Source: Polycladomyces zharkentensis | Lineage (GTDB): Bacteria > Bacillota > Bacilli > Thermoactinomycetales > JIR-001 | Direction: 5' to 3' | DNA: 64,000 nt | Assembly (NCBI RefSeq): GCF_016938855.1 | Contig: NZ_JAFHAP010000008.1 | Span: 186,280-250,279 of the forward strand | Part shown: positions 30,612 to 61,923 of the stretch, piece after piece | Layout of the letters: each line of letters begins with the position of its first letter | Numbering within the stretch: the first letter of the stretch is position 1 | Notes under the pieces: model-generated | What the model was told of the DNA's origin: nothing | Database searches by the model: none | What the model saw: only the letters and a program-made list of their open reading frames with translations | Position numbers and translations under genes: made by a program

Positions 30612-30739
30612 CTCCGGTTCTCCTTTTTTACAGATTGGCATCATCAATATATGCGTCGACATATGGCACAAGGATTCCATTGCAGATGTTGATGACGATT
30701 TCATCATATCCTGTCAGAGACGGATGGACAACCGGTTTG

Positions 30740-31406: not shown

Positions 31407-31457
31407 GTCACTCACTCCTCTTTACACACTTTACCGGAAGTCGCGATGGATGGCAAG

Positions 31458-31578: not shown

Positions 31579-31604
31579 GTAAATGGAGAAAGGATGACGA
31601 ACCA

Positions 31605-45572: not shown

Positions 45573-46612
45573 CATTCAAACGAAATGACGCGTTTTTCCC
45601 GATGGCTCCGTATGGCACATTCGATTACCTTGATCACGTCACGGGCTTCTTCAGCGGTGACAGGTGCCGGTTTTTCCGACCGGATGGCCTCGACGATCCC
45701 TTCATAATAAGCGTGATAGGTTCCCGGCAGGGTTTCTACCCGTCCTTTTACCGATAATCCACCGATCTCCACGGTGAGTTCCCCGTCATGCTCTTCCTGA
45801 CCTACTCCGTATCCCTGATCCCCGGGAACGATTCCCCGTTTCAACTGGTCTTCCTGCGGGTCCAGTCCGTATTTGACGAAACTTCCTTTCTCTCCGTGAA
45901 TCTGAAAACGCGGACCTTCCCCTCGGACCAGCGATCCGGAATGCAAGACGACCTTTAACCGTCCATAATCCAACACCAGGTGGAAATAATCCACGATTTG
46001 GGCTCCTGTCCGTTGCGCCGCCAAGTCGGCCCAGACGGTTCGGGGCGGTCCGAAGAGTACCAACGCTTGGTCGATCAGGTGGGAACCCAGGTCGTACAAA
46101 GTACCCGCACCCGGGATGTCGTGCTCCCGCCAGCGGTCGCGCACTTTCGGCCGATAACGGTCATAGTGGGCCTCATACAGGGCGAGTTCCCCCAGGCACT
46201 CCGATTCGATCAACCGTCGAACAGTGAGGAAATCGTTATCCCAACGACGGTTATGGTACACGCTGAGCACAACACGGTGTTTTCGTGCCAGATCGATCAG
46301 TTCGTCCGCTTCTTCCGTGGTAATGGTGAAGGGCTTTTCCACCACCACATGTTTGCCTGCCGTGATCGCCTCCTTGGCGTACGGATGATGGAGGGTGTTG
46401 GGGGTAGCCACCACGACCAAGTCAATGTCCTGTCGTGCCAACAGCTGATCCGTCGTGGAAACGACGTCCACATCCGGAAGATCGCGCAGCACTTTGTCCG
46501 GGTTGGAGGAAACGACGGCAGCCAACTCCACCCCTTTTACCCGCCGGATCAACGGGGCATGAAACACCTTGCCCGACAAACCGTAGCCGATCAAGCCCAC
46601 TCGAATGGTCAT
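45572..46612 (-). CDS. Gfo/Idh/MocA-family oxidoreductase
   Basis: 346 residues from ATG 46612 (MTIRVGLIGYGLSGKVFHAP), with AGGAGGAG upstream. GLIGYGLSG is the dinucleotide-binding loop, VVVEKPFTITTEEADELIDL holds the EKP motif with the catalytic-region Lys, and GSHLIDQAL gives the conserved D-x-G-S-H-x-x-D/Q pattern. It oxidises or reduces a sugar, inositol or related polyol with NAD(P). It overlaps the DeoR gene by four bases, so the regulator probably controls it. Confidence 0.9.
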   Translation of the reverse strand: MTIRVGLIGYGLSGKVFHAPLIRRVKGVELAAVVSSNPDKVLRDLPDVDVVSTTDQLLARQDIDLVVVATPNTLHHPYAKEAITAGKHVVVEKPFTITTEEADELIDLARKHRVVLSVYHNRRWDNDFLTVRRLIESECLGELALYEAHYDRYRPKVRDRWREHDIPGAGTLYDLGSHLIDQALVLFGPPRTVWADLAAQRTGAQIVDYFHLVLDYGRLKVVLHSGSLVRGEGPRFQIHGEKGSFVKYGLDPQEDQLKRGIVPGDQGYGVGQEEHDGELTVEIGGLSVKGRVETLPGTYHAYYEGIVEAIRSEKPAPVTAEEARDVIKVIECAIRSHREKRVISFE

Positions 46613-47379
46613 CTGCTTTCTCCTCCTGCGATCAACATTTGTACGTCGTGTTGTTCCAATAGCTTTCGAAACACATCGTCCGGCTGCTGTTCCGTCACGA
46701 TGAAGTCGATGTCTTCCCAGGAACAGACGGAATGAAACAGGGTCTTTCCAAACTTGGTGGCGTCCGCCAACACCACGGTCCGGTCCGCACGCCGGATCAT
46801 TTCCCGTTTGACGAATGCTTCTTCCGGATTTGCACTGGTCAACCCCTCTTCCGACAACCCGCATGCGCCGAGAAACAGCCAGTCCACCCGGTACTGGCGG
46901 AGCATCTCCACGGTTTGCGTACCGACGATGTTTCGGTGCCAGGGATTCAGTTGTCCACCCAGCAAATAGACGGTGGCCCGACCGCTTTTGGCCAGTGTGT
47001 CGGCGATATCGATTGAATTGGTCACGGCAATCAAATCGCGGACATAGACCGCTTCCGCCGCACACTGAACGGTGGTGGAAGCGTCAAACAGCACGTGATC
47101 ACCGTCGCGGATCAACGCGGCAGCCGTCCGACCGATCGCCCGCTTGGCTTCGTGATGGACACGGTCTTCATAGTGAATGGCCTCATGGGTCAATGGCGGA
47201 CGGATGGCGCCTCCCCGGACACGGACGATCATGCGGTCTTCTTCCAGCTTGACCAGATCGCGCCTGGCCGTATCGCGCGAAACACCAAATCGTTCGCAGA
47301 TCTGCTCAATACTGATCTTCCCGTGTTGCTTCAGGTGTTCCACAATTGCCAACAACCGCTCTTCCTGTGTCAAACGCAT
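46609..47379 (-). CDS. DeoR/GlpR-family transcriptional repressor
   Basis: 256 residues from ATG 47379. The N-terminal helix-turn-helix (KISIEQICERFGVSRDTARRDLVKLEEDRMIVRVRGGAI) precedes a sugar-phosphate-binding domain with FDASTTVQCAAEAV and FLGACGLSEEGLTS motifs. It is the first gene of a two-gene operon with the downstream Gfo/Idh/MocA enzyme and likely responds to a phosphorylated sugar. TATAAT at 47408-47413 on this strand is a possible -10 box. Confidence 0.9.
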   Translation of the reverse strand: MRLTQEERLLAIVEHLKQHGKISIEQICERFGVSRDTARRDLVKLEEDRMIVRVRGGAIRPPLTHEAIHYEDRVHHEAKRAIGRTAAALIRDGDHVLFDASTTVQCAAEAVYVRDLIAVTNSIDIADTLAKSGRATVYLLGGQLNPWHRNIVGTQTVEMLRQYRVDWLFLGACGLSEEGLTSANPEEAFVKREMIRRADRTVVLADATKFGKTLFHSVCSWEDIDFIVTEQQPDDVFRKLLEQHDVQMLIAGGESR

Positions 47380-48176
47380 CCCCTTTCATTAAAATTACGT
47401 GCGTTATTATAAGTGTAATCCTTAAATACCCGGTGTACAAGCATAATGATTAGACCGGATGCTATCGTAAGATTACCTTTACAATCAAATAAATCTGTTA
47501 CACTGACAGCAATTAACATAAATCACACTCGATGCCGTTTCTGATGTAGGAGGCCTGACCCCAAAATCTATCTTATGATGGAAAAGGGTGCCTTCTTATG
47601 ATGTTAAAACATCTGGTTAATGTTACAACAGCGATCAATTAGAACACCTTTTGGTAATTCATCTGCGACACCTAGTAGTCGCTACCTTCGTAATTAACAG
47701 AAAATTATACCATCACAATATCTTGGTCACTTCCCCACACTTGTCAATAAATTTTTCATCGACATAATGTTGTAAAAATGTTAATTTAACTGCCTGAGGG
47801 AGTGAAGTGGCATCAAATAGTTATGAGAAAAGGACGGTTAATTTTCATGTCGTTCTTCCAGACTTGTGAATGAACAGCTTATTTACCAGAACATCATAGT
47901 CAATTCTTGTTATTATGATTTCTATTTATTAAAATGAAATTAGACTGAGTCGATCATTTTTCTATTTGTTTGCTGTAAGTATCTTTTTGATCGGCTGCTT
48001 TCTAACGGTCTGTATTATAGATTGGGCAATATTATAATGCTACAGGAGGATCGATTGATTGTCTTGATTGTTGTTGGCGTGTTTATCGGAGACATATCTT
48101 TGAATTGCTCATTTATAATGAGAGAAAATATTTGAATACCGTTTATACAAACAAGAAAATTTAAAGAAGTGGTGGG
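47380..48176. other. AT-rich left edge of the defence island
   Basis: About 800 bases, markedly AT-rich against its GC-richer left flank. No open frame above 60 codons and no recognisable RNA. The composition switch begins near 47400. TATTATAAT-like boxes occur around 48030, and GGAGG occurs at about 48045 without a convincing gene after it. It may carry the island promoter and old insertion scars. Confidence 0.5.
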
Positions 48177-50570
48177 ATGATGGATTTAAGTAAATTGGTT
48201 AAAGGTGACACACACTTGGTTCATCCTCTGTTTGAGGTTTTGTTAAAATATAAAGCAACTCCCAAATCCCCCAAAACGGTCATTTTAGTTCCAAGAAGAT
48301 TTGATATTGCGGTTTGGTTGGGCATTTGGGATGCAGCGTGGGAACGATATAAACATGGCAAAGGTCTGGATATCGACGGCTTGTCATTCAAAAGAGGACA
48401 GAAGTTGTTAGTAAACAATGTTGTATGCGAGTTTGTATCAATTAACCATACAGCCGGTGAGATTACACTTTCTGTAAGAAATCCAAAAAAGAGAAGGGGG
48501 ATTCATACAATCCCCTTGAAAAAAATTTTCAGATTGTATCCTGTGAAGGATGAAGCGGCTTTGACCGTCGCAACAACGTTGATCAATGATCCCGTATCTA
48601 ATGAAAAACTGATTTTGGACGAAAATATTCCAATTCATACAGCGATTATCACAAGTGTAAAATCATTTAAAGAAGCATGGAGCAAATTGAAACATTTTGA
48701 CATTGCATCTTGTGCAATACTTGATAAGGAGGGAAATATTGTAGATATCGATATTCATTCAAAGCAAATGTTGAACGATCTCATTGTTTCCAGTGATGTT
48801 CATCGATTTTACAGCTATTTAGATTCAGATAATCCGTTGCCCAATCACCTGATTATTGATGGATCCAAACATGTGTTGGACGATCGGTCTCAGTTTGAAG
48901 ATATGGTATTGGAAAAAGGTATCCCTGTGACAGTATTGGTTGAACATGGCGAGCGAAAACATGTTCGTTTTTTTCGCGATTTGGGATTTGAGGTTGTCAT
49001 GGACAACAAATGGTTAAATGAATTAAAATTACCCAGATCAGACAAATTTGAATACATCAACCGAACGTTCAAAATCTCCCGTAAGATTCGGATTGAACCC
49101 ATTGTTTTAGAGAACGAAAATCTTTCAAAGTCATTTGAAACCCTTCGTCGTGATGTAAGACATCTGGGCGGGAAAGTCAATGATCTGCGTTCTGAGGCAG
49201 CTATGTATCTTTACTTCATGGCGTTATCCATTACCCCGACGGATTATTTCAGTGAGCGTTTGTCCGAAATCAGAAGAATACTTGGTTCGGACAAGTCACT
49301 GAATGAATTGACTTCTGCTATGGAGTTATTGGAAAACGAGGAATACAGGCTGAGTCAAGAAAATGAAAAGATCAAATATTTAAAGGCTTTACTTTTGACA
49401 TATCCGACCGATAAAATTGGTGTTGTAGTAAAAAATAAACAGGAATTTTTGAAATGTAAAGAGTATTGGGAAGGGTTTTTTCAAAAAAAGGGATTGAAAA
49501 AAGTAGAGATCGTCACTCCCAATTTATTGACGTCAGGATACCGGTACTATGACAAATTGTTTGTGGCAGGATATTTGGGATATAAAGAAATGTACCGATT
49601 GATCACTTCTTATTCCTGCAACGATCTGACGATCCTTTTATGGGACCATGAGATGAAAACTTATTTTCGGACATTTTATCACAGGATCGCCAAAGTTTTT
49701 TCTAAGCGTATTGTCTGGAAAAAACAAGAGGAACTAACAGAGAAAATTCCAACCGCAGAAGAATTAAAAGAAACCTTGCAACTCGAGCCGGACAAAATTG
49801 AGTCCAGATGCTTCCAGGGCAAGTACTTTAAAAAATACTTGACGAGTGACAGAAATCTTGCAGAAAAGGCATTTCTTGTCGAGTTTGAAGACGGATATCG
49901 AGCTTTTTTCACTCAAACTTATCCATTATACAAGGTGATTGACGAGGGTGATGATCTTGAGGATCATTCCTTCAAAGAGATTGAGGCGTCTGAACTGAAA
50001 CAAGGGGACAAGGTCATCTTTGTCAAGTCCTGCCCTGACAAAATCAAAGATATTGTTGACAATTATCTTGAAAGAAACAACAATCTTGATCTCAGAATAA
50101 CGGCAAAGCTCTGGCAAAACGCTCTGCAAGTAAAATTTGAAGAAAAGAACAGAAATCTTGACGAACTGTTCAAGCTTTTGAAGCAACACGGTTTGAAACG
50201 AACCAAAGTTACCGTAAGTAACTGGCTGAGAAAGCAAATGATCGGACCGGCCCAACTGGACGATATAGATATCATTGCCAAGGCAACTGAGTATATGCCT
50301 CTCGTATCCAAGATCAGAGAAGTGAAGGAAGCGATTGTCAAACTGAAATCTGCTCACATCCAAGCTTCATACATATTGGCAAAACAAGTGCTGACTGAAA
50401 TCAAGAAACATTACGGTGAGTCTGCCGTTACGCTGGAATCGGGTTCGAGAACGGGAATGCATCAATATCTCATCGTAAAGCGGGTTGTCAAATTATTAGC
50501 GAATGTAAGAAGATCTTATGTCAACAAAATTTTAGAAATCAAAAATGGGGTGGAAATATGGCACGGATGA
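48177..50570 (+). CDS. drmE: DISARM DrmE-like protein
   Basis: 797 residues, AT-rich, ATG 48177 or 48180. No catalytic motif is obvious. The N-terminal TVILVPRRFDIAVWLGIWDAA, a central IGVVVKNKQEFLKCKEYWE block and a late small barrel-like stretch (EIEASELKQGDKVIFVK) suggest degenerate helicase-like domains followed by a helical C-terminus. Size, lack of known domains and position upstream of drmA and drmB match DrmE, the class 2 DISARM subunit of unknown role. The identity is by context and general likeness rather than a defining motif. It overlaps the next gene by 13 bases, so the four genes to 57505 are one operon. Confidence 0.7.
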   Translation: MMDLSKLVKGDTHLVHPLFEVLLKYKATPKSPKTVILVPRRFDIAVWLGIWDAAWERYKHGKGLDIDGLSFKRGQKLLVNNVVCEFVSINHTAGEITLSVRNPKKRRGIHTIPLKKIFRLYPVKDEAALTVATTLINDPVSNEKLILDENIPIHTAIITSVKSFKEAWSKLKHFDIASCAILDKEGNIVDIDIHSKQMLNDLIVSSDVHRFYSYLDSDNPLPNHLIIDGSKHVLDDRSQFEDMVLEKGIPVTVLVEHGERKHVRFFRDLGFEVVMDNKWLNELKLPRSDKFEYINRTFKISRKIRIEPIVLENENLSKSFETLRRDVRHLGGKVNDLRSEAAMYLYFMALSITPTDYFSERLSEIRRILGSDKSLNELTSAMELLENEEYRLSQENEKIKYLKALLLTYPTDKIGVVVKNKQEFLKCKEYWEGFFQKKGLKKVEIVTPNLLTSGYRYYDKLFVAGYLGYKEMYRLITSYSCNDLTILLWDHEMKTYFRTFYHRIAKVFSKRIVWKKQEELTEKIPTAEELKETLQLEPDKIESRCFQGKYFKKYLTSDRNLAEKAFLVEFEDGYRAFFTQTYPLYKVIDEGDDLEDHSFKEIEASELKQGDKVIFVKSCPDKIKDIVDNYLERNNNLDLRITAKLWQNALQVKFEEKNRNLDELFKLLKQHGLKRTKVTVSNWLRKQMIGPAQLDDIDIIAKATEYMPLVSKIREVKEAIVKLKSAHIQASYILAKQVLTEIKKHYGESAVTLESGSRTGMHQYLIVKRVVKLLANVRRSYVNKILEIKNGVEIWHG

Positions 50571-52279
50571 TCCCTGATATTTATGACAAAAATTTGCGAA
50601 GCCAAGGGGAAAAAGAGGTATTTGAACTTTTTAAAAATGCTCCGGAAACAGATGACTGGGTTGTTTTGCACTCTTTGGGGATTTCGCGTCATGTTAAGAG
50701 ATTATACGGAGAAATTGACTTTGTGGTCTTGGCACCGAATTTGGGGATATTTTGTTTGGAAGTGAAGTCCGGAGGCGTTAAAAGAGAGAACGGGTTGTGG
50801 ATTTTCACAAATCGACAGAGAAAATCATTCAAAAAAACGGTGGGACCTTTTGAACAGGCGAGGGACGGCATGTTCAGTCTGATGAAAGCAGTGGAAAGCC
50901 GTTTCGGTAAGTATGATCGTCTGGGAAACTTGCTTTTTGGCTTCGGCGTGATGTTCACGGATATAGAATTTCGGGAAAGCGGCCCGGACATGGAGCAGTG
51001 GCAAGTTTATGATTTGCGCAGCAAAAACAAACCGGTCACCGAATATATCAAACGTTTGCATGAGAATACAAAAAAGCTGTTGGAGCAGAAAGGCATATCG
51101 CGATTATTGCCAAACAAAAAGGATATCGACAAGTTAGTATCCTTTTTGAGAAAGGATTTTGACATCATTATTCCAATGTGGCACAGAGAAAAAACGGCTG
51201 AAAACGAAATCATTCGCCTTACTGAAGAACAGTATGCTTGTTTGGACGGAATACAATTCAACAAGCGGGTGTTGTTCGAAGGCGGAGCAGGAACCGGGAA
51301 AACCATGTTGGCTGTTGAATCTGCGAGAAGAAGTGCATTAGATGATCAAAGAGTTTTGTTCTTGTGTTACAATAACTTGCTTGCGGATGAGCTCAGAAAA
51401 AGCTTTTCGGATCAGCACATGGTAACGGTATCCACTTTTCACGGGTATCTGAGAACGATATGCAAACGGGATCATTTGAATGAAAGACATCCTGACTTTT
51501 TTACGCGAATTTTGCCGGAGAAAGCATTTGAAAATATTGTTGAATTCGGTTTGGAACCGTACGACAAGTTAATTTTGGATGAAGGACAAGACCTGATCCG
51601 TGAAAATTACCTCGATGTTTTGGATTTGTTGATCAAAGGAGGATTGAAAGAGGGAGAGTGGCAGATATTCTGTGATTTGAAATATCAGTCCATCTACAGT
51701 GATCAGAGTCGAGAAGTAATGTTGAATCTTCTTGCGAACAGAGCTCAATTTGCCTCTTTCAGATTAACGAAAAATTGCAGAAATACGAGATATATTGCAG
51801 AGCATGCCCTGATTTTGTCACGTGCTGACAAGGATGCCTACAGAGTAAGTGAAGTTGATGGTCTTCCGGTGGATTATTACTTCTTCGATGATGAAAATGA
51901 TATGTGCCACAAGGTCATGAGTGTATGGAAAAAATTAAGAGGTGAAGGGGTAATCACGGATTCTTTGACTATTCTGTCTCCCAGAAGATGGGTGAATTCC
52001 GCTTTGACCAAGGTTTCCGGGCATGGTTTGAAAATACACGATTTGACGACCCGACTTCCCAAGTCTGACGGCAGTGTCGGATTCAGCACCATTCATGCAT
52101 TCAAAGGACTGGAAAACAAGTATATCTTTATCGTTGATCTCGATGATCTTGATTCGGACAGGATCAGAGAACTGTTGTATGTAGGGATGACCAGGGCTAA
52201 ACTCGGTTTGTTTTTGTTCATCAAATCAGACTTGAAGGAGACTTGGAGTGAGATTTTTCTGAGGAGGGTTCTGCAATGA
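50558..52279 (+). CDS. NERD nuclease-UvrD-like SF1 helicase fusion
   Basis: 573 residues. N-terminal NERD domain (about 15-130): QGEKEVFELF, then GEIDFVVLAPNLGIFCLEVKSGG, giving the E-D-ExK restriction-like nuclease residues. SF1 helicase motifs follow: Walker A FEGGAGTGKTMLA (about 240), LFLCYNNLLA (Ia), LILDEGQDL (II, about 340), KNCRNTRYIA (IV), FSTIHAFKGLE (V) and LLYVGMTRAKL (VI). It should unwind and perhaps cut DNA. It occupies the place where other DISARM loci carry the DrmC phospholipase-D-type protein. It overlaps drmE by 13 and drmA by 4 bases. Confidence 0.88.
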   Translation: MARMIPDIYDKNLRSQGEKEVFELFKNAPETDDWVVLHSLGISRHVKRLYGEIDFVVLAPNLGIFCLEVKSGGVKRENGLWIFTNRQRKSFKKTVGPFEQARDGMFSLMKAVESRFGKYDRLGNLLFGFGVMFTDIEFRESGPDMEQWQVYDLRSKNKPVTEYIKRLHENTKKLLEQKGISRLLPNKKDIDKLVSFLRKDFDIIIPMWHREKTAENEIIRLTEEQYACLDGIQFNKRVLFEGGAGTGKTMLAVESARRSALDDQRVLFLCYNNLLADELRKSFSDQHMVTVSTFHGYLRTICKRDHLNERHPDFFTRILPEKAFENIVEFGLEPYDKLILDEGQDLIRENYLDVLDLLIKGGLKEGEWQIFCDLKYQSIYSDQSREVMLNLLANRAQFASFRLTKNCRNTRYIAEHALILSRADKDAYRVSEVDGLPVDYYFFDDENDMCHKVMSVWKKLRGEGVITDSLTILSPRRWVNSALTKVSGHGLKIHDLTTRLPKSDGSVGFSTIHAFKGLENKYIFIVDLDDLDSDRIRELLYVGMTRAKLGLFLFIKSDLKETWSEIFLRRVLQ

Positions 52280-55200
52280 GACATAAGATTATTGATTTTC
52301 TCAAAAGGGAATTGATTGGCCCCGATCCGATCTCCCCTTTTGTACAGAGTAATGGAGAGGAGGTTTTGTTTGAGCCTCCCAGGCAAAGATATGGGGCCGC
52401 AATCCTCTTCCCGCAGGGCTCTGTCATGGATGATTCCGAAAGGTTGTCTGAAAAAGAATTGACTTCGCTGAACGAGAAAGATGAAGAGGAATATACAGAA
52501 GAGGCCGTTGACAGGACAAACATCAGGTTCGGAAACGATTATGAAGGCGAAGAAGAGGCTTATGATGACGTTGTCAATCTCTCCAATGCTTATTTCCCGT
52601 CCGCAATCGGTTTGAGCTGTTTCATGGAACTCCCTGCGGATGGTGTGGTTGTACATGTTCACGCAGGAAGATATAAAACCGGGAGTTTCCCATGGAGGGA
52701 TCAAAACGGCAATGAAAAAGTGAGAAAGAATGCTTATTTACGAGAAAGTATTGACTCATCCATCCCAATCAATGTTAAACAGCTGCCCCTTCGAGAAAGA
52801 GAAAGCAGAAAATTTCCGGTTGTTTACGAAGGGAAAGAGATCGGTTTGACTGTTTATGTGACCAACCGTTCTGTCATCAAGGGCTGCCATTTGCTCACTT
52901 TTTCCTTGGTCAATGAAATTAAAGGAAAAGCGTCTATTTGGGACAGTGAAAAGTGTTTTTTCCAAGTAAACATGAATATAGAATCCATAAACGGAGAAGC
53001 ATGTTTTCTGCCTTATCCCGAAAACCGGTACATTGCACATGAAGATGATGAAGTAAACAAACTGTTGTACAGAAACCATAAGAGTTATGCCATCGGACAC
53101 GGATGTGCCGCACATTGGGATTTGGAAGAAGGTAAAAAAGGGAGAGTTAAAAGAGTTGAAACAAGCATTCTGCCTTTCTATGAAATGAAACCCATTCTTC
53201 CCGTCCGATTGGAAGATGTTGAATTAAGCATGCTGGATCTGTCCGACTTGAGTAACAACTATGAGAAGGGTGTTAGCAATTTGGAACAGTTGTGTTCCAA
53301 ATATGAAAAATGGATCAAGAAGCAGGAAAAGCAAATCCCACTTCTTATAACGGACTTGCAGGATATAGCAAAAAAGCAAGTTAATAACTGTTACCGCTGT
53401 TTAAACAGGATGAGGGAAGGGATTCAGCTAGTCAAATCCGATGAAAAGGTAATGCAAGCTTTTCAACTTATGAACAAGGCAATGCTTATCCAACAGCTCC
53501 GGTATTCTCTTCCTACCAGAAATTGGAATGAAAATGAGATAATACAGTTCAAAGATATTGATGTGTTAAACAGAAAAACTTGGCCAAAGCAACATCTTGG
53601 AAACTGGCGGCCTTTTCAGATTGCGTTTATCCTGATGAACTTGAAGTCGATAACGGATCCGAACTGCAGCGACAGAAACATGGTCGATATCATCTGGTTC
53701 CCGACAGGTGGGGGGAAAACAGAGGCATACTTGGGGCTCACTGCTTTTTCCATCTTTATGAGACGACTGAAAAACCCTGAGGATTCGGGAACTTCCGTGT
53801 TGATGAGATATACTTTGAGACTGCTGACTGCCCAGCAATTCCAGAGAGCCGCTGCCTTGATCACGGCTTGTGAACGTATCAGGGAAGAAAAGCCAGATTT
53901 ATTGGGCAATGATCGAATAACCATCGGACTTTGGGTCGGAGGAGGTCTTTCTCCCAATACCCGGCAGGAAGCAAAATCCGCGTATTCAGCTTTGGAGAGG
54001 AACGGAACACAGGAGAATCCGTTTGTACTCCTCAAATGTCCGTGGTGCGGAGCACAAATGGGTCCGGTGTCAAGGAAAGGGAAATCAAAAAAATCGGAAA
54101 TCAAGATTGTTGGGTATAAAAAAACAAGAGAAACTGTTGTTTTTCAGTGCGGTGACAAAAAATGTCATTTCTCCGGAAAGGCATTGCCCGTTCTGATAGT
54201 TGACGAAGATATGTACATGGAGCCTCCGTCCTTGGTCATCGCAACGGTGGACAAATTTGCTATGCTGCCTTGGAAACCGGAAGCAAGAGCATTTTTCGGA
54301 TTCAGAGATAACGGGAAAAATGTTTCACCTCCGGACTTGATTATTCAAGATGAGCTGCATCTCATTTCCGGGCCGTTGGGTTCGATGGCGGGACATTACG
54401 AAACTTTGGTGGCGGCTCTATGCAAAAACTCTGAAACAGGAAGAGGCCCGAAAATCATCGCATCCACTGCCACCATCAGCAGGGCCAAAGAGCAGGTTCA
54501 TGCGTTGTACAACTGCGGTCAGGATAATGTCTTTCTGTTCCCTCCACAGTGTCTGGAAGCGGGAGAATCGTTTTTCGCTTATGTGGAACACGATACTGCC
54601 AAAGTTCCCGGACGGATCTACGTGGGGGTACATGCTTCCGGATTGCCGTCGCATGCGACAGCCCAAGTACGAGTGATTTCTGCTCTGAGTCAAGCCGTGA
54701 AGATGCTCGAAGCAGATGATAAAGAAAAAGATCCATATTGGACTATAGTAAACTACTTTAACAGTCTGAGAGAACTCGGACACGCTGCAACGCTTGTTTC
54801 CGCAGACATCAATGAATATATCCGTTCCATGTGGATCCGAAAAAATGTTTTGGGCGACAGTAACAAGAAGAGGATTATTCTCAAAACCATTGAACTGACT
54901 TCAAGGGTAAAATCGAGTGAGATCCCGCAATATTTGCAGGAACTTGAATACAGTTATCCGGGATATGAAGAGCACAAACCCGTCGATATTTGCTTGGCAA
55001 CCAACATGATTTCGGTCGGAATGGATATTCCTCGGCTGGGTTTGATGACAGTAATTGGACAACCAAAGACGACTTCGGAATATATTCAGGCCACAAGCCG
55101 GGTGGGAAGGAGCCAAGACGCTCCCGGACTGGTGGTTGTGATCTACAATACCCAAAAACCCCGGGACCGTTCACAGTATGAGCAATTTTATTCTTACCAC

Positions 55201-55656
55201 GACAAGATTTACTCCCATGTTGAACCGACCAGCGTCACACCGTTTGCCGCCCCGGTCAGAGAACGTGCACTCCATGCGGTGATTACCGGAATTGTTCGTT
55301 TTTTGGGATCGGAAAATTACTTAAAGGGACCCTATCCTCCCCCTGATGAGAAAACAAAACAGTTTGTTTTAAAAACAATTCAGGAAAGAGTGGAACAAAT
55401 TGATCTTAGTGAGTTAGAAGATACAATAAAAATGTTGGAAAAGAGATTTTCCGAGTGGGAAAGGTATCAACCGTTGGAGTATGGTAATCCAATGGGTTCC
55501 ACTCTGAATCAGCCTCTCATGTATCCGTTCGGGATGAAACCTGATATGAAATTAAGAAGAGCGTGGCCCACTCCCACATCCATGAGAAATGTGGATGTTG
55601 AATGCAAGGTTGAAGTGATTTCCAATTACCCGGAAGGAGACGAACAAATTGAATAA
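52276..55656 (+). CDS. drmA: DISARM helicase DrmA
   Basis: 1126 residues. The N-terminus (DFLKRELIGPDPISPF, then PPRQRYGAAILFP) is the DrmA-type start. An SF2 helicase core follows: Walker A WFPTGGGKTEAYLGL (about 475), IIQDELHLISGPLGS (DEXH box, about 690) and a C-terminal QATSRVGRSQ (motif VI, about 937). Four cysteines in CPWCGAQM...CGDKKCHF (about 590-635) probably bind zinc. GAGGAGGG precedes ATG 52276. The known DrmA-DrmB complex binds and restricts incoming phage DNA. The gene overlaps both neighbours. Confidence 0.92.
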   Translation: MRHKIIDFLKRELIGPDPISPFVQSNGEEVLFEPPRQRYGAAILFPQGSVMDDSERLSEKELTSLNEKDEEEYTEEAVDRTNIRFGNDYEGEEEAYDDVVNLSNAYFPSAIGLSCFMELPADGVVVHVHAGRYKTGSFPWRDQNGNEKVRKNAYLRESIDSSIPINVKQLPLRERESRKFPVVYEGKEIGLTVYVTNRSVIKGCHLLTFSLVNEIKGKASIWDSEKCFFQVNMNIESINGEACFLPYPENRYIAHEDDEVNKLLYRNHKSYAIGHGCAAHWDLEEGKKGRVKRVETSILPFYEMKPILPVRLEDVELSMLDLSDLSNNYEKGVSNLEQLCSKYEKWIKKQEKQIPLLITDLQDIAKKQVNNCYRCLNRMREGIQLVKSDEKVMQAFQLMNKAMLIQQLRYSLPTRNWNENEIIQFKDIDVLNRKTWPKQHLGNWRPFQIAFILMNLKSITDPNCSDRNMVDIIWFPTGGGKTEAYLGLTAFSIFMRRLKNPEDSGTSVLMRYTLRLLTAQQFQRAAALITACERIREEKPDLLGNDRITIGLWVGGGLSPNTRQEAKSAYSALERNGTQENPFVLLKCPWCGAQMGPVSRKGKSKKSEIKIVGYKKTRETVVFQCGDKKCHFSGKALPVLIVDEDMYMEPPSLVIATVDKFAMLPWKPEARAFFGFRDNGKNVSPPDLIIQDELHLISGPLGSMAGHYETLVAALCKNSETGRGPKIIASTATISRAKEQVHALYNCGQDNVFLFPPQCLEAGESFFAYVEHDTAKVPGRIYVGVHASGLPSHATAQVRVISALSQAVKMLEADDKEKDPYWTIVNYFNSLRELGHAATLVSADINEYIRSMWIRKNVLGDSNKKRIILKTIELTSRVKSSEIPQYLQELEYSYPGYEEHKPVDICLATNMISVGMDIPRLGLMTVIGQPKTTSEYIQATSRVGRSQDAPGLVVVIYNTQKPRDRSQYEQFYSYHDKIYSHVEPTSVTPFAAPVRERALHAVITGIVRFLGSENYLKGPYPPPDEKTKQFVLKTIQERVEQIDLSELEDTIKMLEKRFSEWERYQPLEYGNPMGSTLNQPLMYPFGMKPDMKLRRAWPTPTSMRNVDVECKVEVISNYPEGDEQIE

Positions 55657-57505
55657 AATCAGACAGAGTCAATTGATCTCTCCATGGGGAATCGGTCAAA
55701 TCGTCAACTTCCCCAATGATGTATCCCTGATGGTGTGTGGTTTGGATGCTTGGGAAAAAACTTATCAATATGCCGAAGACCCGGAAGAATTCAAAATCAG
55801 GGAGGAAAGATTGGAAAAACAATTGGGAGTCAGCCATTTTCGGCTGCCTCCCGATTATCGGGAACGGAAAAAAGATGTTCGAAATTCAAATCTCTCCATT
55901 CCTTTCGTCAACTTTCCCCTTTGGCAATATTGTCCCAGATGCGGCTGGATGACGAAGCGTTCTCCGTTTGGATATGAGAAGAGTTTCTGCATCGGGAATA
56001 AGTACAGTGAAGGACTTTCATGTGATCAGTTGAAAAGACGACCGCGTCTGATACCGGTACGTTTCATTACGGTATGCAGGAAGGGGCATATTGAAGACTT
56101 CCCATTTGAAGAATGGGTTCACAGGGGAGAAAAGTGTAAAAAGGGACGAAGTCAATTGCGGTTGATCGCCGGCAAAAGCAGTACTCTTTCAGGGATTGAG
56201 ATTTCATGCATTTGTGGAGCCAAAAGAAGTATGGCCGGATCCTTTTCGGAAGGGGCGCTTGACAATCTCAAAAAGTGCAGTGGAAACAGGCCATGGTTGG
56301 GAGAAGTGGATGGCAAGGGAAAAGGATGCGGAGAAAGTTTGACGGTTGTTCAACGCGGGGCCTCCAATGTTTATTTTCCGATTGTGAAGAGCGCAATTTT
56401 TCTTCCGGGTTACGGAGAATTTGACACAAAAACGGTAGAAGCGTTTGAACAGATTTGGACAAATTTCAGACCTTCAATTGAAGGATCATCCAAAGAGGCA
56501 TTGAGGACTTTGGTACAGGGGTTTTCCAAACAGTACAATGTCAACGAAGATACACTGTTGAATTTGATTTTCAAGAGATTGGATGAGGTAAAGGGCAGAA
56601 AATCGGTTGAAGAGAAAGAGTCAAGCAGAAACTTGGATGTTGAGATTCGGTTACCGGAATATCAGGCGATATTGATTGGAACAGGAGCAGATGATCAAGA
56701 TTTGTATGTGAAAAAAAGAGATGCAAAAGAGTACGAGTCTGATGTCTCTCAATATTTCAAGCAAGTGTCACTGGTTCATAAACTCAAGGAAACAAGAGTA
56801 TTTATTGGTTTTACGAGATTGGAACCTCCTGACAACAACGATGTAATCAGCCGAAAGTTTGAGCTAGCAAAGAAACCCCTGGATTGGTTGCCTGCCGTTC
56901 AAGTGAGAGGAGAAGGAATTTTCATTGACTTTGACAAGGAGAAATTGGAAGAATGGGCCTCAAGAGATCGTGTCAAAAAAAGGATAGAAAAACTGGAGTC
57001 AAATCTCAAAAAGAAAAAACGTTACCATGGGGATAATTATATATTAAATCCCAAGTTTGTTTTGTTGCATACCTTTGCTCACCTCCTGATCAATCAGCTC
57101 AGTTATGAATGCGGCTACGGCAGTTCCTCACTCAGGGAGAGGATTTATTGCAGCCAAGACGGTTCGGATGAAACCATGAGCGGTATCCTGATCTATACGG
57201 CATCAAACGATTCGGAAGGATCCATGGGTGGTTTGGTCAGGCAAGGTCTTCCGCAACGTTTGGAGAACATTGTTTATTCCGCCATCCACAATGCCAAATG
57301 GTGCTCTGCTGACCCCATCTGTATACAAAGTAATGGTCAGGGTCCTGACTCCTGCAATCTGGCTGCGTGCCACAATTGTACCTTGTTACCTGAAACATCG
57401 TGTGAGTTCGGAAACCGAATTCTTGATCGGGCATTGATTGTGGGAACGGATGACGATGAAAGTGTTGGTTTCTTTTCATCTATGGAGCTTGTGAAACAAT
57501 GGTAG
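55649..57505 (+). CDS. drmB: DISARM DUF1998 protein DrmB
   Basis: 618 residues from TTG 55649, overlapping drmA by eight bases, with AAGGAGA upstream. The start NKIRQSQLISPWGIGQIVNF is typical of DrmB. Several cysteine clusters are seen: YCPRCGW (about 93), FCIGNKYSEGLSC, ISCICGAK and, near the C-terminus, CIQSNGQ...CNLAACHNCTLLPETSC. The C-terminal DUF1998 domain includes LHTFAHLLINQLSYECGYGSSSL and GILIYTASNDSEGSMGGL. DrmB partners the DrmA helicase. Confidence 0.92.
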   Translation: MNKIRQSQLISPWGIGQIVNFPNDVSLMVCGLDAWEKTYQYAEDPEEFKIREERLEKQLGVSHFRLPPDYRERKKDVRNSNLSIPFVNFPLWQYCPRCGWMTKRSPFGYEKSFCIGNKYSEGLSCDQLKRRPRLIPVRFITVCRKGHIEDFPFEEWVHRGEKCKKGRSQLRLIAGKSSTLSGIEISCICGAKRSMAGSFSEGALDNLKKCSGNRPWLGEVDGKGKGCGESLTVVQRGASNVYFPIVKSAIFLPGYGEFDTKTVEAFEQIWTNFRPSIEGSSKEALRTLVQGFSKQYNVNEDTLLNLIFKRLDEVKGRKSVEEKESSRNLDVEIRLPEYQAILIGTGADDQDLYVKKRDAKEYESDVSQYFKQVSLVHKLKETRVFIGFTRLEPPDNNDVISRKFELAKKPLDWLPAVQVRGEGIFIDFDKEKLEEWASRDRVKKRIEKLESNLKKKKRYHGDNYILNPKFVLLHTFAHLLINQLSYECGYGSSSLRERIYCSQDGSDETMSGILIYTASNDSEGSMGGLVRQGLPQRLENIVYSAIHNAKWCSADPICIQSNGQGPDSCNLAACHNCTLLPETSCEFGNRILDRALIVGTDDDESVGFFSSMELVKQW

Positions 57506-57524
57506 ACTCTTCATAGATATAAAG

Positions 57525-57560
57525 CAGTCGGGAAAGCTTTGTCCCGACTGTCTTATTCTT
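57525..57560 (+). terminator. Rho-independent terminator after drmB
   Basis: CAGTCGGGA and TCCCGACTG form a nine-base stem, followed by TCTTATTCTT. It separates the drmE-helicase-drmA-drmB operon from the methyltransferase, which then has its own AT-rich leader (57561-57638). Confidence 0.8.
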
Positions 57561-57638
57561 GGGGAACTTGCGTTCTCATCATGAAACTTATAATTTATAA
57601 TTAACGTAGAAACCGCAGGAGAAAAGAAGGGATCCGAA

Positions 57639-58964
57639 TTGGTTGTCATTGATTTATTTTCCGGAGCCGGTGGCTTGAGCGAAGGATTTCACCGGTTGGG
57701 TTTCAGGTTTGCCGCAAAGGTCGAAAAAGACAAGTGGGCATGTGAGACACTGAAAACGAGGATCATGTATCACTTTTTGGTGAAACAAAAAGATTTGGAT
57801 ACATATTTTACTTATCTTCTTTCATCCGATGATCACAAAAACATTGATATTCACAGAGAGGTCGTTTTTAAGAAACATCCGGATTTGAGAGATTTATTGG
57901 AACTGGTTGTTTTGAACAGAAAATTTGGGAATCCCAATAATGATAAGGAGGCCACTTCAACGACCCAAATTATTCGTGAAATTGACCAGTCTCTTAAACA
58001 ACAGGATATGACAAGCGTGGATTTAATCATCGGTGGCCCTCCTTGTCAAGCATACTCACTGGTCGGAAGAGGGAGGATGAAGGAGCTGGCTGAAAAAGAT
58101 CCTCGCAATTATTTGTTCTATTATTATTTAAATATGGTTAAGTATTATAAACCACGAGTGTTTATCTTCGAAAACGTCCCCGGGATCCTTAGTGCAAAAA
58201 AAGGAAAGGTATTTGAAACGATCAAAGAAGAGTTTGAACGGATCGGTTACAAACTGTTGTCGGGGCCGAACAAGGATGAATTGAAGAATGTGTTGGATTT
58301 CAATGATTACGGGATTCCACAAACCAGAAAGAGAGTGCTTCTGTTCGGATTTCAAAGTCGGTTTGACTACACATACCCGAAATTTGAAAGCCATAAAATT
58401 GTCTGGGAAGATCCCCTTACGACGAAAAATGTATTGTATGATTTGCCTCCGTTGAATCCTGGAGAGGGAAGTGATCATTTTTTCGGCCAATATACGGAAA
58501 TGTCCGGTCATATTTCCGATTTTCAAAGAAAAATGAGAGAGAACAGTATCGGTGTACTGAATCACAAAGCTCGTCCGCTAAGAGAACTCGACAGGGAGAT
58601 TTACCTCATTGCCCTTGAAAAAGCATCCCGGGGTCAACAGCTTCATTATGATGAATTGCCGGAGAGATTGAAAACTCACAAAAATCGTGACTCGTTCACT
58701 GACAGATTCAGAGTTCACCGTGAGGACGGGTTGCCTCATACCGTGGTTGCCCATATAGCCAAAGACGGACATTACAATATTCACCCCGATTTCAAACAGT
58801 GTCGAAGCCTGACGGTCAGAGAAGCAGCCAGAATACAGACATTTCCGGATAACTACAAATTTGAGGGACCTCGAACTGCCCAATTTGTTCAAGTTGGGAA
58901 TGCAGTACCACCGTTGATGTCTGAAATTATCGCTCATTCGATCAAAGAAATGTTGGAAAAGTAA
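57639..58964 (+). CDS. drmMII: DNA cytosine-5 methyltransferase (DrmMII-type)
   Basis: 441 residues from TTG 57639, with AAGGGAT upstream. Motif I DLFSGAGGLSEGF binds S-adenosylmethionine, GGPPCQAYSLVGRGR holds the catalytic Cys (motif IV, about 135), FENVPGI is motif VI, and QTFPDNYKF...QVGNAVPPLMSE are motifs IX-X. An inserted stretch of about 60 residues lies between motifs I and IV. In class 2 DISARM this enzyme marks host DNA so that it is spared. It is separated from drmB by a terminator. Confidence 0.88.
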   Translation: MVVIDLFSGAGGLSEGFHRLGFRFAAKVEKDKWACETLKTRIMYHFLVKQKDLDTYFTYLLSSDDHKNIDIHREVVFKKHPDLRDLLELVVLNRKFGNPNNDKEATSTTQIIREIDQSLKQQDMTSVDLIIGGPPCQAYSLVGRGRMKELAEKDPRNYLFYYYLNMVKYYKPRVFIFENVPGILSAKKGKVFETIKEEFERIGYKLLSGPNKDELKNVLDFNDYGIPQTRKRVLLFGFQSRFDYTYPKFESHKIVWEDPLTTKNVLYDLPPLNPGEGSDHFFGQYTEMSGHISDFQRKMRENSIGVLNHKARPLRELDREIYLIALEKASRGQQLHYDELPERLKTHKNRDSFTDRFRVHREDGLPHTVVAHIAKDGHYNIHPDFKQCRSLTVREAARIQTFPDNYKFEGPRTAQFVQVGNAVPPLMSEIIAHSIKEMLEK

Positions 58965-59015
58965 AATGCAGGTTTGACTCTACTGAATCATATCGATTTC
59001 GGAGGAAAGACGGGT

Positions 59016-59432
59016 ATGGATAAACCGGACCCGATTCGTTCCAAAAATATGAGAGCCATTCGCGGAATGAAAACAAAGTTGGAAGAAGAGGTTGCTAAAG
59101 CTTTGTGGCAACGCGGTGTTCGATTTCGGAGGAATGTGGCGGATTTATATGGCAAGCCCGATATTGCAATCAAGAAATATAAAATAGTGATTTTTATTGA
59201 TTCATGCTTTTGGCATTATTGTCCCGATCACACAACCATCCCGAAAAGAAACAGGGATTTTTGGATCAACAAATTATCAAGAAACAAAGAAAGAGACGAA
59301 GAGGTGACTGAATACTACCGGGAACTTGGATGGAATGTGATTCGTATCTGGGAACACAGATTAAAAGAAGATTTTGATGGGGTTATTGATGAAATTGTCG
59401 AGTGTGTTCGAAATGCAAAAACCAAAGGTTAA
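59016..59432 (+). CDS. vsr: Very short patch repair (Vsr) endonuclease
   Basis: 138 residues from ATG 59016, with GGAGGA ten bases upstream. DPIRSKNMRAIRGMKTKLEEEVAKALWQRG is the family N-terminus, YGKPDIAI carries the catalytic Asp, and FIDSCFWHYCPDH the FWH motif with the metal- or zinc-binding Cys/His. The C-terminal RELGWNVIRIWEH is also standard. Vsr nicks at T:G mismatches made by deamination of 5-methylcytosine, so it is a natural partner of the adjacent methyltransferase, about 50 bases upstream. Confidence 0.9.
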   Translation: MDKPDPIRSKNMRAIRGMKTKLEEEVAKALWQRGVRFRRNVADLYGKPDIAIKKYKIVIFIDSCFWHYCPDHTTIPKRNRDFWINKLSRNKERDEEVTEYYRELGWNVIRIWEHRLKEDFDGVIDEIVECVRNAKTKG

Positions 59433-59802
59433 AAACTATGAATTGACAGCCCACATCGAAATCCCTTCGGTTTCGTTTCGAGTTGTACAGACAAGAATGA
59501 CCGTCATGCATAGTTAGGTCCTAATAATTTATAATTACTCTAAAAAATAAGTGAGCCATGGTGAAAATCCTCGGTTAGTCCCAAATAAGGAGGATTTCAC
59601 ATGGCTCAGTATTATATTGCCGTTATTATTAAAAATAATTGTGCGTCATTCTTGTTTATGAAGGGGACGGCTGCACGAAAAGAATCATCGATATAGAGAA
59701 ACAAACGGGGGAAATCATGAAGAAGGGAACGGATACAGCGGGGTGCCACAGTGAATGAAACGTTTCGGGGAGTCGTCATTCCAGCTCCAAAACAAAAAAT
59801 GA
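59433..59802. other. Right edge of the defence island
   Basis: AT-rich. After the inverted repeat at 59552-59608, ATG 59601 opens MAQYYIAVIIKNN, and after a frameshift CVILVYEGDGCTKRIIDIEK continues in another frame. This could be a small broken gene of unknown family. Normal composition resumes near 59900. Confidence 0.35.
59552..59608. repeat. Long imperfect inverted repeat at the island edge
   Basis: TGAGCCATGGTGAAAATCCT and AGGATTTCACATGGCTCA pair over about 20 bases with two single-base bulges, around a 16-base loop. The right arm contains a good ribosome site and ATG. It could be an insertion scar, a terminator without a T-run or a regulatory hairpin. Confidence 0.6.
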
Positions 59803-59831
59803 TTGACAAATACAAATCATCGGTTTATATT
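59803..59831 (+). promoter_or_regulatory. Sigma-A promoter of the sugar-acid operon
   Basis: TTGACA, a 17-base spacer and TATATT. It lies about 90 bases before the DeoR gene. Confidence 0.75.
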
Positions 59832-59868
59832 GTGAATTAACATATGACAACATAAATAAACAATATCG

Positions 59869-59883
59869 AACATAATCGATGTT
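59869..59883. promoter_or_regulatory. Candidate DeoR operator
   Basis: AACATAATCGATGTT is an inverted repeat (AACAT/ATGTT) about 38 bases after the -10 box and about 40 bases before the DeoR start, a suitable site for autorepression. Upstream repeats of CATA (59840-59853) may add half-sites. Confidence 0.45.
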
Positions 59884-59921
59884 ACTTTTTCACAACCATT
59901 TTGATCAGGAGGACTTGACTC

Positions 59922-60728
59922 ATGTTGTCCGCCGAACGCAGGCAGAAGATCCTGCAGAAAATCGAGCAGGAAGGCGTGGTGGAAATCAACCGTCTGGCCG
60001 AGGAATTCGGCGTTTCGACGATGACGATCCGCCGCGATCTCGATTGTCTGGAAGCAGAACAAAAGATTATCCGCACCCACGGCGGCGCCATGTTGCGTCA
60101 GGACAACTTGCGTGAACATCCTTTCGGTTGGAAGGATGAACGAAACGTGGCAGAGAAGGAGGCGATTGCCCGACTGGCGGTCACCCTGATCGGGGAAGGA
60201 CAGAGCATCATTCTGGATGCCGGATCGACGACGTTGCGCCTGGCTCGGGAGTTGAAGCGGTTTCAAGATTTGTTGCTGGTGACCAACGATATCAAAATCG
60301 CTTCCGAAGTGGTGGATGTACCGGGAATCCGGGTGTTGTTGACAGGAGGGGAATTGAAGCCGCAAATCTACAGTTTGGAAGGCCACTTCAGTTTGGAGAT
60401 GCTGTCTCAGTTGCAGGTGGATACGGCGTTTATCGGTTGTGATGCGTTCGATGCGGAAAAAGGGGCGATGAGCAACAGTTTGTCCAAGGTGGCGATCAAA
60501 CGGGCGATGCTCCACTGCGCTCGTCGACGCATCCTGCTGGCGGATGCGAGCAAGTGCGGTCAACGGGCTCTGGCCACTTTTGCTGTTTGGGATCAATTCC
60601 ACGCGATCGTCACTGATAATCATCTTCCTGTGGAGTTTCAGGAAAAGTGCCAACAGCAGGGAATCGAGGTGCTCGTCGCGGGAAACGGAGGGGAAGTTCA
60701 TGCGGAAACTCGTGGTGATCGCCGATGA
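59922..60728 (+). CDS. DeoR-family regulator of the sugar-acid operon
   Basis: 268 residues from ATG 59922, with GGAGG upstream. Helix-turn-helix: GVVEINRLAEEFGVSTMTIRRDLDCLEAEQKI. The effector domain has ILDAGSTTLRLAREL and AFIGCDAF. It overlaps the DUF1537 kinase gene by 29 bases and likely senses a phosphorylated four-carbon sugar acid. Confidence 0.92.
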   Translation: MLSAERRQKILQKIEQEGVVEINRLAEEFGVSTMTIRRDLDCLEAEQKIIRTHGGAMLRQDNLREHPFGWKDERNVAEKEAIARLAVTLIGEGQSIILDAGSTTLRLARELKRFQDLLLVTNDIKIASEVVDVPGIRVLLTGGELKPQIYSLEGHFSLEMLSQLQVDTAFIGCDAFDAEKGAMSNSLSKVAIKRAMLHCARRRILLADASKCGQRALATFAVWDQFHAIVTDNHLPVEFQEKCQQQGIEVLVAGNGGEVHAETRGDRR

Positions 60729-61923
60729 CATCACCGGCGGCAATGCAACCGGTGTGCTGTTGACCAAACAAGGATGGAAGGTATTAACCGTTCCGGATCA
60801 CCGCGTTTCCATCACGGGTCCGCTGGAGAGGCATGACGCCGTCGTTTGGAACGCGGCTACCCGATTGCTTCCGGCGGAAGAGGCCGGATTGCGTGTCCGC
60901 CGCATGGCAGAACAGGTGATCCCTCACGACGATCGCCCGCTCTTGGCCAAGCGGATCGACAGCACCTTGCGCGGTTCGGTCGGCATGGAGACGGAAGCCG
61001 TATTGCAAGTGATGCCGCCGGAGACGATCGCCGCTGTGGTCCCCGCATTCCCTCAATCCGGTCGGCTCACCAGAGAGGGCGAATTGTTGGTACACGGTGT
61101 GCCGGTCCACCAAACTGAGGCCGGACGCGACCCGTTTACACCGGTAAAGACTTCCCGAGTGGTGGACTGGATCCAATCGCAGACATCTCTTCCGGTGGGA
61201 TTGCTGGAGACGGGGAAATACACGCTGGCAAAAGATATGCGAGTGGCACTCGAGCGTTTGATTGCGCTTGGTTACAAACTGATCGTCTGTGATGCCGAGT
61301 CGGATGAGGATATCGAGAAACTGGCCGAAGCATGGGCGGGATTGAATCTTCCGGTTCTGCCGGTGGACCCTGGTCCGTTCACGGCAGCCTATGCGGCGGC
61401 CAAAAACGCGGAAGGAAAGCGGATACTGCTCGTCTCCGGAAGTCTGGCGGAAACCGCCCGAAAACAATTGGACTATCTGGAGCAATCCTTGCCGGTCGGG
61501 ATGTTGACGGTGAACGTCAACCGATTGACGGACAATGCCCATGACTATACAGCCGAAGTGGCTCACCGTTTGAAAGAGCTGACGGAACGGTTCCAAGTCG
61601 TCGGGTTGCGAACGGATGGGGTGCCGGCAAACCGGTGCGACGGACACACCGTATCCGAATCGGTTGCCCGATTGGTGGTGAATCTGATTCACCGTTATCC
61701 GTTTGACGGGCTGTATCTGTCCGGAGGAGAAGTGGCGTTTACAACACTTCGGGCCATGGAGGTGAGAGGTTTGCAGTTGATGGGAGAGGTTCTTCCACTT
61801 TGTGTGATGGCCAAACTGGTCGGAGGTCCCTTTCAGGGCATGCACATCATCACCAAGGGAGGGTCCGTCGGGGATGATGCGGCGATTTTGACCAGTGTGA
61901 AAGCGCTTTTACGACAGTGTTAA
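60700..61923 (+). CDS. DUF1537-family four-carbon acid-sugar kinase
   Basis: 407 residues from ATG 60700 (MRKLVVIADDITGGNATGVLL), with GGAGGGG upstream. VVIADDITGGNATG is the DUF1537 N-terminal signature, KRIDSTLRGSVGMETEAVL and VPAFPQSGRLTREGELLVHG are conserved, and the C-terminal domain holds LYLSGGEVAF and ITKGGSVGDDAAIL nucleotide-binding loops. Characterised members phosphorylate four-carbon sugar acids such as threonate or erythronate at O-4, and a PdxA2 then oxidises and decarboxylates the product. The exact stereoisomer here is not known. Confidence 0.9.
   Translation: MRKLVVIADDITGGNATGVLLTKQGWKVLTVPDHRVSITGPLERHDAVVWNAATRLLPAEEAGLRVRRMAEQVIPHDDRPLLAKRIDSTLRGSVGMETEAVLQVMPPETIAAVVPAFPQSGRLTREGELLVHGVPVHQTEAGRDPFTPVKTSRVVDWIQSQTSLPVGLLETGKYTLAKDMRVALERLIALGYKLIVCDAESDEDIEKLAEAWAGLNLPVLPVDPGPFTAAYAAAKNAEGKRILLVSGSLAETARKQLDYLEQSLPVGMLTVNVNRLTDNAHDYTAEVAHRLKELTERFQVVGLRTDGVPANRCDGHTVSESVARLVVNLIHRYPFDGLYLSGGEVAFTTLRAMEVRGLQLMGEVLPLCVMAKLVGGPFQGMHIITKGGSVGDDAAILTSVKALLRQC

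Follow-up and report, generated by a model that had tools for sequence, protein, structure and literature searches.

DISARM systems are classified by their gene content. Class 1 is composed of DrmA, DrmB, DrmC, DrmD and DrmMI, class 2 of DrmA, DrmB, DrmC, DrmE and DrmMII. A nuclease of the phospholipase D (PLD) type typically follows the DUF1998 gene in DISARM, and many DISARM-like classes are still uncharacterised (Bell et al., 2025, PMC12458937). According to Bravo et al. (2022), DISARM can dispense with DrmC, and the gene is frequently missing. The PADLOC rule for class 2 DISARM requires DrmC (PMC9252829). Here, we describe a gene cluster from Polycladomyces zharkentensis that encodes a DISARM core without DrmC together with a fusion of a NERD nuclease domain and a UvrD-like helicase (NERD-UvrD). 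It is located in a stretch of 64,000 nucleotides (nt) (contig NZ_JAFHAP010000008.1, positions 186,280 to 250,279), hereafter called the window, to which coordinates refer unless a locus is named.

The locus is a real, conserved and little-catalogued DISARM variant, and this variant is probably a third DISARM class. We consider it quite probable that the locus represents a distinct lineage of DISARM-type anti-phage systems with NERD-UvrD as its predicted effector; this would make it a candidate class 3 or 'NERD-DISARM'. In the openly licensed literature, no mention of a third DISARM class, a DISARM subtype or DISARM variants was found.

NERD domains are also part of other defence systems. They are listed in Mokosh type I and Nhi-like systems (PMC10952713) and were named for TALON, which is extremely rare, occurs largely in Chloroflexota and contains ARMADA-like YprA, TPR-CSD and TBP genes (Bell et al., 2025, PMC12458937). 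TALON and the locus studied here both pair a YprA-family helicase with a NERD-type nuclease. Going by this description of TALON, the two appear to differ: here, DrmA passes a DISARM equivalog cut-off, DrmB is a separate protein and NERD is fused to UvrD. In addition, a Pfam scan of the six products of the locus detected no TPR-CSD or TBP genes. The PADLOC entries RTasNERD-Hel (DRT) and C3a187 NERD+UvrD are near full-length homologues of the NERD-UvrD protein, but they are classed as reverse-transcriptase-associated or candidate contexts and not as DISARM. GajB of the Gabija system is a UvrD-like defence helicase that weakly matches NERD-UvrD, and this match does not comprise the NERD domain. 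Gabija is not known to contain DrmA or DrmB.

Gene content of the locus

Six plus-strand genes at 48177-59432 were verified using an open reading frame (ORF) listing and curated profiles:

48177..50570, plus strand: DrmE-family protein, 797 amino acids (aa); NF038316 199.7 bits, PF24957 (DrmE_C) 43.8 bits
50558..52279, plus strand: fusion of NERD (PD-(D/E)xK nuclease) and UvrD-like superfamily 1 (SF1) helicase, 573 aa; PF08378, PF13538
52276..55656, plus strand: DrmA, YprA-family superfamily 2 (SF2) helicase, 1126 aa; NF038325 980.2 bits, cut-off 950
55649..57505, plus strand: DrmB, DUF1998/MZB protein, 618 aa; NF038324 510.5 bits, cut-off 240; PF09369
57639..58964, plus strand: DrmMII, cytosine-5 (C5) DNA methyltransferase, 441 aa; PDLC02649 612 bits; PF00145
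58974..59432, plus strand: Vsr very-short-patch repair endonuclease, 152 aa; TIGR00632 132.4 bits, cut-off 97.85; PF03852

The first four genes are chained by overlaps. drmE runs to 50570, past the start of NERD-UvrD at 50558 (13 nt shared); NERD-UvrD in turn extends to 52279, beyond the start of drmA at 52276 (4 nt shared), and drmA and drmB share 8 nt. DrmA contains a GGGKT motif at residue 478, DrmMII the motifs PCQ at 135 and ENV at 178. The NERD domain matches PF08378 with 46.1 bits (cut-off 22.1), and the helicase part matches UvrD_C_2 (PF13538). A preliminary description of this DNA had named DrmA, DrmB, DrmMII, Vsr and a nuclease-helicase fusion gene overlapping both drmE and drmA; the profile scores and coordinates confirm all of these.

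Judged by the gene features tested, the locus belongs to DISARM in the broad sense: it encodes DrmA, a separate adjoining DrmB and a DNA methyltransferase (DrmMII) in the same operon. The earlier assignment to class 2 was not supported in the form stated. DrmMII is present, and class 2 membership fails on DrmC, which the published rule needs. Furthermore, DrmE scores above the threshold of the broad family model NF038316 (DrmE_fam, 199.7 bits, cut-off 80) and below that of the DISARM_DrmE equivalog NF038323 (53.7 bits, cut-off 250). The PADLOC DrmE model yields 38 bits, confined to residues 561-730. In total, the locus shares DrmA, DrmB, DrmMII and a DrmE-family protein with class 2, but it lacks DrmC, its DrmE is a distant family member and NERD-UvrD lies inside the operon. 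With class 1 it has the DrmA-DrmB core and an operon methyltransferase in common, but DrmC is absent, the six products match other models, with neither DrmD nor DrmMI among the PADLOC matches listed, and DrmC-bearing DrmA proteins sit elsewhere in the DrmA tree (see below).

Searches with NF038323 yielded no match above cut-off in 229 genomes (E 1e-10) and none in 119 and 98 genomes (E 1e-20), and these zeros do not show absence because the control genomes gave none either. Two matches below cut-off were obtained in the 229 genomes, one of them the window itself.

Recurrence of the layout and the DrmA tree

An alignment of five NERD-UvrD sequences was used to scan 84,980 species genomes. It confirmed 194 relatives, the best 80 of which were analysed; 79 loci were usable, since L094 gave no NERD ORF. 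Fifty of these 79 loci adjoin DrmA, DrmB or DrmE (48 DrmA, 40 DrmE). A DrmC profile built from three sequences detected DrmC in none of the 50; in six of them the contig stops before DrmB, so that a DrmC behind DrmB would not be visible.

Among all fetched stretches minus three duplicates, 47 contain NERD-UvrD, DrmA and DrmE, the window included. The order DrmE, NERD-UvrD, DrmA on one strand is found in 46 of the 47. With mechanically set start codons, both junctions overlap or are at most 30 nt apart in 44 loci; an overlap of NERD-UvrD is seen with drmA in 39 loci and with drmE in 19. The same 47 stretches encode a C5 methyltransferase in 34, Vsr in 24 and an AIPR-type (abortive infection phage resistance) protein in 17 cases. 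The AIPR-type family was identified by Pfam in two loci and extended by phmmer. In clostridial relatives, an AIPR protein of ~680-700 aa is encoded directly upstream of DrmE (L059:5261-7369 and L072:5346-7385). No AIPR is among the window's six products.

Recurrence was also assessed in a DrmA survey that was not NERD-seeded (NF038325, E 1e-30). It covered four phyla, named after the seed loci, and found DrmA-positive genomes in 18 of 398 in the window's own phylum, 15 of 398 in Pseudomonadota, 28 of 346 in Actinomycetota and 16 of 345 in Bacteroidota. The window's genome was excluded, as were the four genomes in which NERD had been found before. Of 75 fetched loci, 74 were used, L164 having no DrmA ORF. 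NERD-UvrD only is encoded in 20, DrmC only in 23 and neither in 31; no locus has both. These counts include L036 and L037, two contigs of one genome both scored as 'neither', as well as L159 and L173, which were scored as positive although their NERD-UvrD matches are weak (242 and 194 bits). Such a survey of drmA-drmB neighbourhoods had been proposed in the preliminary description, and it shows that NERD-UvrD without DrmC recurs. A Fisher test of NERD/DrmC exclusivity (p 1.3e-4) ignores phylogeny and is not relied on here.

A midpoint-rooted DrmA tree was calculated from 103 rows with DrmA of at least 900 aa and more than 850 bits, many of them metagenome bins. The duplicates L037, L074 and L084 were left out, and canonical class 2 DrmA is not among the rows. 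One starred branch splits the tree into 36 rows (16 with DrmC, 9 with NERD, 11 with neither) and 67 rows (54 with NERD, 13 with neither, 0 with DrmC). As the NERD-seeded scan contributed the majority of the NERD rows, the NERD share should not be read as a frequency. The window's DrmA belongs to a group of 40 rows with 100* support; NERD-UvrD is present in 39 of them, and the named members of the group come from ten phyla. The lone exception, G155, carries DrmE and NERD-UvrD at the opposite end of a broken contig. Mantel tests on the 36 loci with all four genes at full length gave correlations with the DrmA tree distances of r 0.920 for NERD-UvrD, 0.939 for DrmE and 0.979 for DrmB. In each comparison, 0 of 2000 permutations reached the observed r. 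Since the NERD-UvrD and DrmA trees are congruent, we read NERD-UvrD as inherited together with the core genes.

A second layout without DrmE was observed in which a large helicase-like gene is followed by DrmA, DrmB and then NERD-UvrD (L039:790-15655; L138, L157, L177, L122). In L039, the large gene before DrmA matches SF1 helicase models and is preceded by Hsp70-like and coiled-coil-like genes. Outside L039, the helicase-like gene rests on a weak profile match. NERD-UvrD matches are also present in 17 plasmid records. In the two copies inspected, gene names are generic (NERD domain or AAA family ATPase, helicase-related, DUF1998 proteins). A tblastn search with DrmE against plasmids gave no match at E 0.001.

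Searches for DrmC

The PADLOC matches listed for the six products include no DrmC model, and a search of the whole genome with the DrmC model NF038319 (E 0.001) gave 0 matches. The same model detects the DrmC of three other loci. This agrees with the absence of drmC noted in the preliminary description. A drmC elsewhere in the genome, which that description had named as a possible refutation, was not detected with NF038319, and a DrmC acting in trans in the window's own genome was rejected.

DrmC in trans was also searched for in 48 genomes with NERD-UvrD loci having DrmA, DrmB or DrmE. They represent 48 of the 50 NERD-seeded loci, the other two repeating genomes already included. At E 1e-6, some NF038319 match is found in 21 of the 48 genomes, and one genome is above the cut-off (G444, locus L128, without DrmE). 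Matches occur in 10 of 14 control genomes as well, in one of them above the cut-off. For G423 (locus L083), a match of 67 bits in a frame of 189 residues was obtained. Apart from these and the match in G419 (see below), 26 NF038319 matches remain; 22 of them are in frames of 478-555 residues that presumably encode other PLD-superfamily enzymes. With an iterated DrmC profile, none of the 72 stretches with NERD-UvrD and DrmA, DrmB or DrmE (window and duplicates included) reaches E 1e-4, a threshold at which 24 frames in other stretches were scored. Six weaker matches in NERD stretches (E 0.0002-0.016) concern frames of 786-1052 aa in five cases and, in L093, a frame of 165 aa.

A PLD nuclease concealed in DrmE was considered and rejected. 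The preliminary description had seen no HxKxxxxD pair in any product; literally this is incorrect, as two such strings are present in DrmE, at residues 60 and 194. Among 42 aligned DrmE relatives, the first string is found in L051 only and the second in none. Given this lack of conservation and a predicted fold similar to that of helicases, the strings were taken as chance.

These searches bear on the alternative that an ordinary class 2 DISARM has lost its drmC here, with NERD-UvrD as a neighbour without a special role. DrmMII and a DrmE-family protein are class 2 markers, canonical class 2 DrmA was not placed in the DrmA tree, and DrmC is often missing from DISARM (Bravo et al., 2022), all of which would agree with such a loss. 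However, DrmE is below the DISARM_DrmE cut-off in the window, and among 43 aligned DrmE proteins (window included) DISARM_DrmE is matched by 10, with a best E of 6.4e-17, compared to 43 of 43 for DrmE_fam. In addition, the lineage is broad and DrmC was never seen in it, which is unlike a local loss. Simple loss of drmC is very unlikely in our view.

The NERD-UvrD and DrmE-family proteins

The window's NERD-UvrD was aligned with 90 relatives of 530-640 aa scoring at least 350, DISARM and solo copies together. Invariant columns number 22 in these 91 sequences. Among them are E18, E52, D54, E68, K70 and Q100 in the NERD domain and K248, D341, E342, R408 and R546 in the helicase, and the PD-(D/E)xK residues as well as the Walker A/B residues fall within them. 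These 11 named motif positions were chosen from the list of invariant columns. The predicted model of NERD-UvrD has a pLDDT of 93.6, and its residues 220-572 overlay UvrD (Z 32.0, root-mean-square deviation (rmsd) 3.0, 344 residues). Since the motif residues of both parts are invariant, nuclease and helicase activities should both be live, as predicted from the alignment.

For DrmE, a predicted model with a pLDDT of 83.2 was obtained in which residues ~1-524 resemble SF2 helicases. It overlays DDX6 (Z 12.6, 307 residues, rmsd 5.9) and RIG-I (Z 12.2, 368 residues, rmsd 7.3), and Foldseek found Hel308 with E 1.5e-7. By sequence, a DrmE profile gave only weak matches in the PDB, the best being fibrinogen (E 0.009), with RIG-I at ~0.01. 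All 43 aligned DrmE proteins lack a Walker A pattern where it would be expected; L063 has one stray match elsewhere. From the predicted fold of the window's DrmE, we read this protein as a putative, catalytically dead SF2 helicase.

DrmE is apparently split into two genes (~320-370 and 505-540 aa) in L040, L041, L165, L178, L181 and L185. In L181 and L185, neither half is recognised by the DrmE profile. NERD-UvrD is missing beside the split DrmE of L040 and L041.

Proposed mechanism and alternatives

The gene set suggests the following mechanism. DrmMII would methylate host cytosines and thereby provide a self mark. Vsr acts beside C5 methyltransferases in the repair of deamination mismatches; here, it would repair T:G mismatches resulting from 5-methylcytosine deamination and guard the methylated sites. 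DrmA-DrmB would load on unmethylated, single-stranded or 5'-overhang ends of phage DNA and then translocate. For DrmAB from Serratia, sensing of unmethylated or 5'-overhang DNA as well as loading and translocation have been reported (Bravo et al., 2022). DrmE, with a predicted helicase fold that lacks an ATP-binding motif, might sense DNA, couple the components or form a scaffold. NERD-UvrD, presumably expressed together with the core genes, would unwind and degrade the DNA marked by DrmAB. It would take the job proposed elsewhere for DrmC or for borrowed PLD nucleases.

NERD-UvrD is the likely candidate for the effector nuclease. We lean somewhat towards the wider proposal of a third DISARM class, present in at least ten phyla, in which DrmE as a dead SF2 helicase forms one machine with the DrmAB motor and a live NERD-UvrD, the latter being the effector that degrades DNA. 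If this is true, the NERD-UvrD gene would encode the DNA-degrading effector so far missing from the DISARM mechanism. A DISARM lineage with a co-inherited helicase-nuclease makes the question of how DISARM destroys phage DNA testable. Furthermore, these loci point to a blind spot of the catalogues: they escape class 2 calling by PADLOC because its rule requires DrmC and would pass over them, the PADLOC DrmE models match 12 and 2 of the 43 aligned DrmE proteins at E 0.001, and the gene names in the two plasmid copies are generic.

Several observations weigh against NERD-UvrD as the dedicated effector of a third class. In 31 of the 74 surveyed DrmA loci, four of them with DrmE, neither nuclease is encoded, so a co-encoded nuclease may be unnecessary. 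The exclusivity of NERD and DrmC is clade-level, each nuclease marking its own DrmA clades. A phylogeny-aware pairing test (DrmA at least 750 aa and 550 bits, tree rooted with ten divergent DrmA rows) comprised 12 independent pairs. DrmC went the opposite way in a mean of 0.7 of them and the same way in 0. Repeated swapping of NERD and DrmC was rejected for lack of support in this test. As no repeated replacement is indicated by the rooted tree, the two nucleases mark different clades. They also occupy different positions, NERD-UvrD upstream of DrmA and DrmC downstream of DrmB. In the preliminary description, a distinct subtype in which NERD-UvrD replaces DrmC had been suggested. The distinct lineage stands, being found in many phyla with NERD-UvrD between DrmE and DrmA; the replacement is inferred, since exclusivity is clade-level. 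A DrmC acting in trans is conceivable for some members of the lineage: elsewhere in the genome of G419 (locus L079), a frame of 227 residues matches DrmC with 101 bits. It may be a true DrmC because the confirmed DrmC proteins of L032 (115.5 bits) and L034 (132.5 bits) also score below the NF038319 cut-off of 133. Concerning the proteins, the best PADLOC model for NERD-UvrD, RTasNERD-Hel (165.6 bits, residues 1-559), is classed under reverse-transcriptase-associated systems. The fold overlays of DrmE are loose, since the Foldseek TM-scores on the query are low (mostly 0.14-0.27 among the 50 matches listed). Finally, 29 of the 79 NERD-UvrD loci, some on short contigs, have no neighbouring DrmA, DrmB or DrmE.

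This last count would be expected if NERD-UvrD were a hitchhiking accessory or a second defence module and DrmAB, DrmE and DrmMII worked with host nucleases. The same can be said of the NERD-UvrD tree, in which solo and DISARM copies are intermixed, and of DrmE loci without NERD-UvrD (L040, L041, L044, L180). A hitchhiker agrees less well with the one-strand order DrmE, NERD-UvrD, DrmA in 46 of 47 loci, with a congruence to the DrmA tree that nearly equals that of DrmE (r 0.920 vs 0.939) and with the retention of NERD-UvrD in 39 of the 40 rows of the window's clade. We regard it as unlikely.

A system that acts by abortive infection is another alternative. It would be regulated, and the NERD helicase-nuclease would also cut host DNA once DrmAB is triggered. 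The AIPR-type proteins in 17 of 47 loci are compatible with this proposal. However, the window encodes no AIPR, and DrmMII together with Vsr suggests self-marking of host DNA. We consider an abortive mode extremely improbable.

The island and its surroundings

The gene cluster was horizontally acquired, and its role is probably anti-phage. It fills an island that was delimited as follows:

47442..59795, no strand: whole island, GC content 0.41; boundaries from congener blastn breakpoints and GC dip

The adjoining 2-kb blocks have a GC content of 0.51-0.58. Two genomes of the same genus, G001 and G002, match the flanks with 88-91% identity (blastn). In both, the left alignment stops at 47441 and the right one restarts at 59796. 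Between the flanks, 131 bp are found in G001, whereas G002 has other DNA of 1381 bp there; the island is missing from both. On the left, the flank matches the congeners over ~1.9 kb only (from ~45563), and further left the fetched congener stretches diverge from the window. Since the alignments break at the same two positions in both congeners, the island contains this one system, and its presence varies within the genus. The site is variable in G002 too: the insert (L197:12022-13402, 1381 bp) has a GC content of 0.43. Since G002 holds other DNA at the same position, the site may be an insertion hotspot. No exact word of at least 11 nt that could represent attachment repeats is shared between 47401-48200 and 59401-59830, no tRNA is present in the 64-kb window, and an Rfam scan of 46000-61000 gave zero matches.

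Elsewhere in the window, a GC-poor stretch at ~24-28 kb contains two genes for Imm6-family immunity proteins (25215-25718 and 26257-26622). Two genes for M42 glutamyl aminopeptidases (29532-30707 and 31356-32672) are located near each other on opposite strands.

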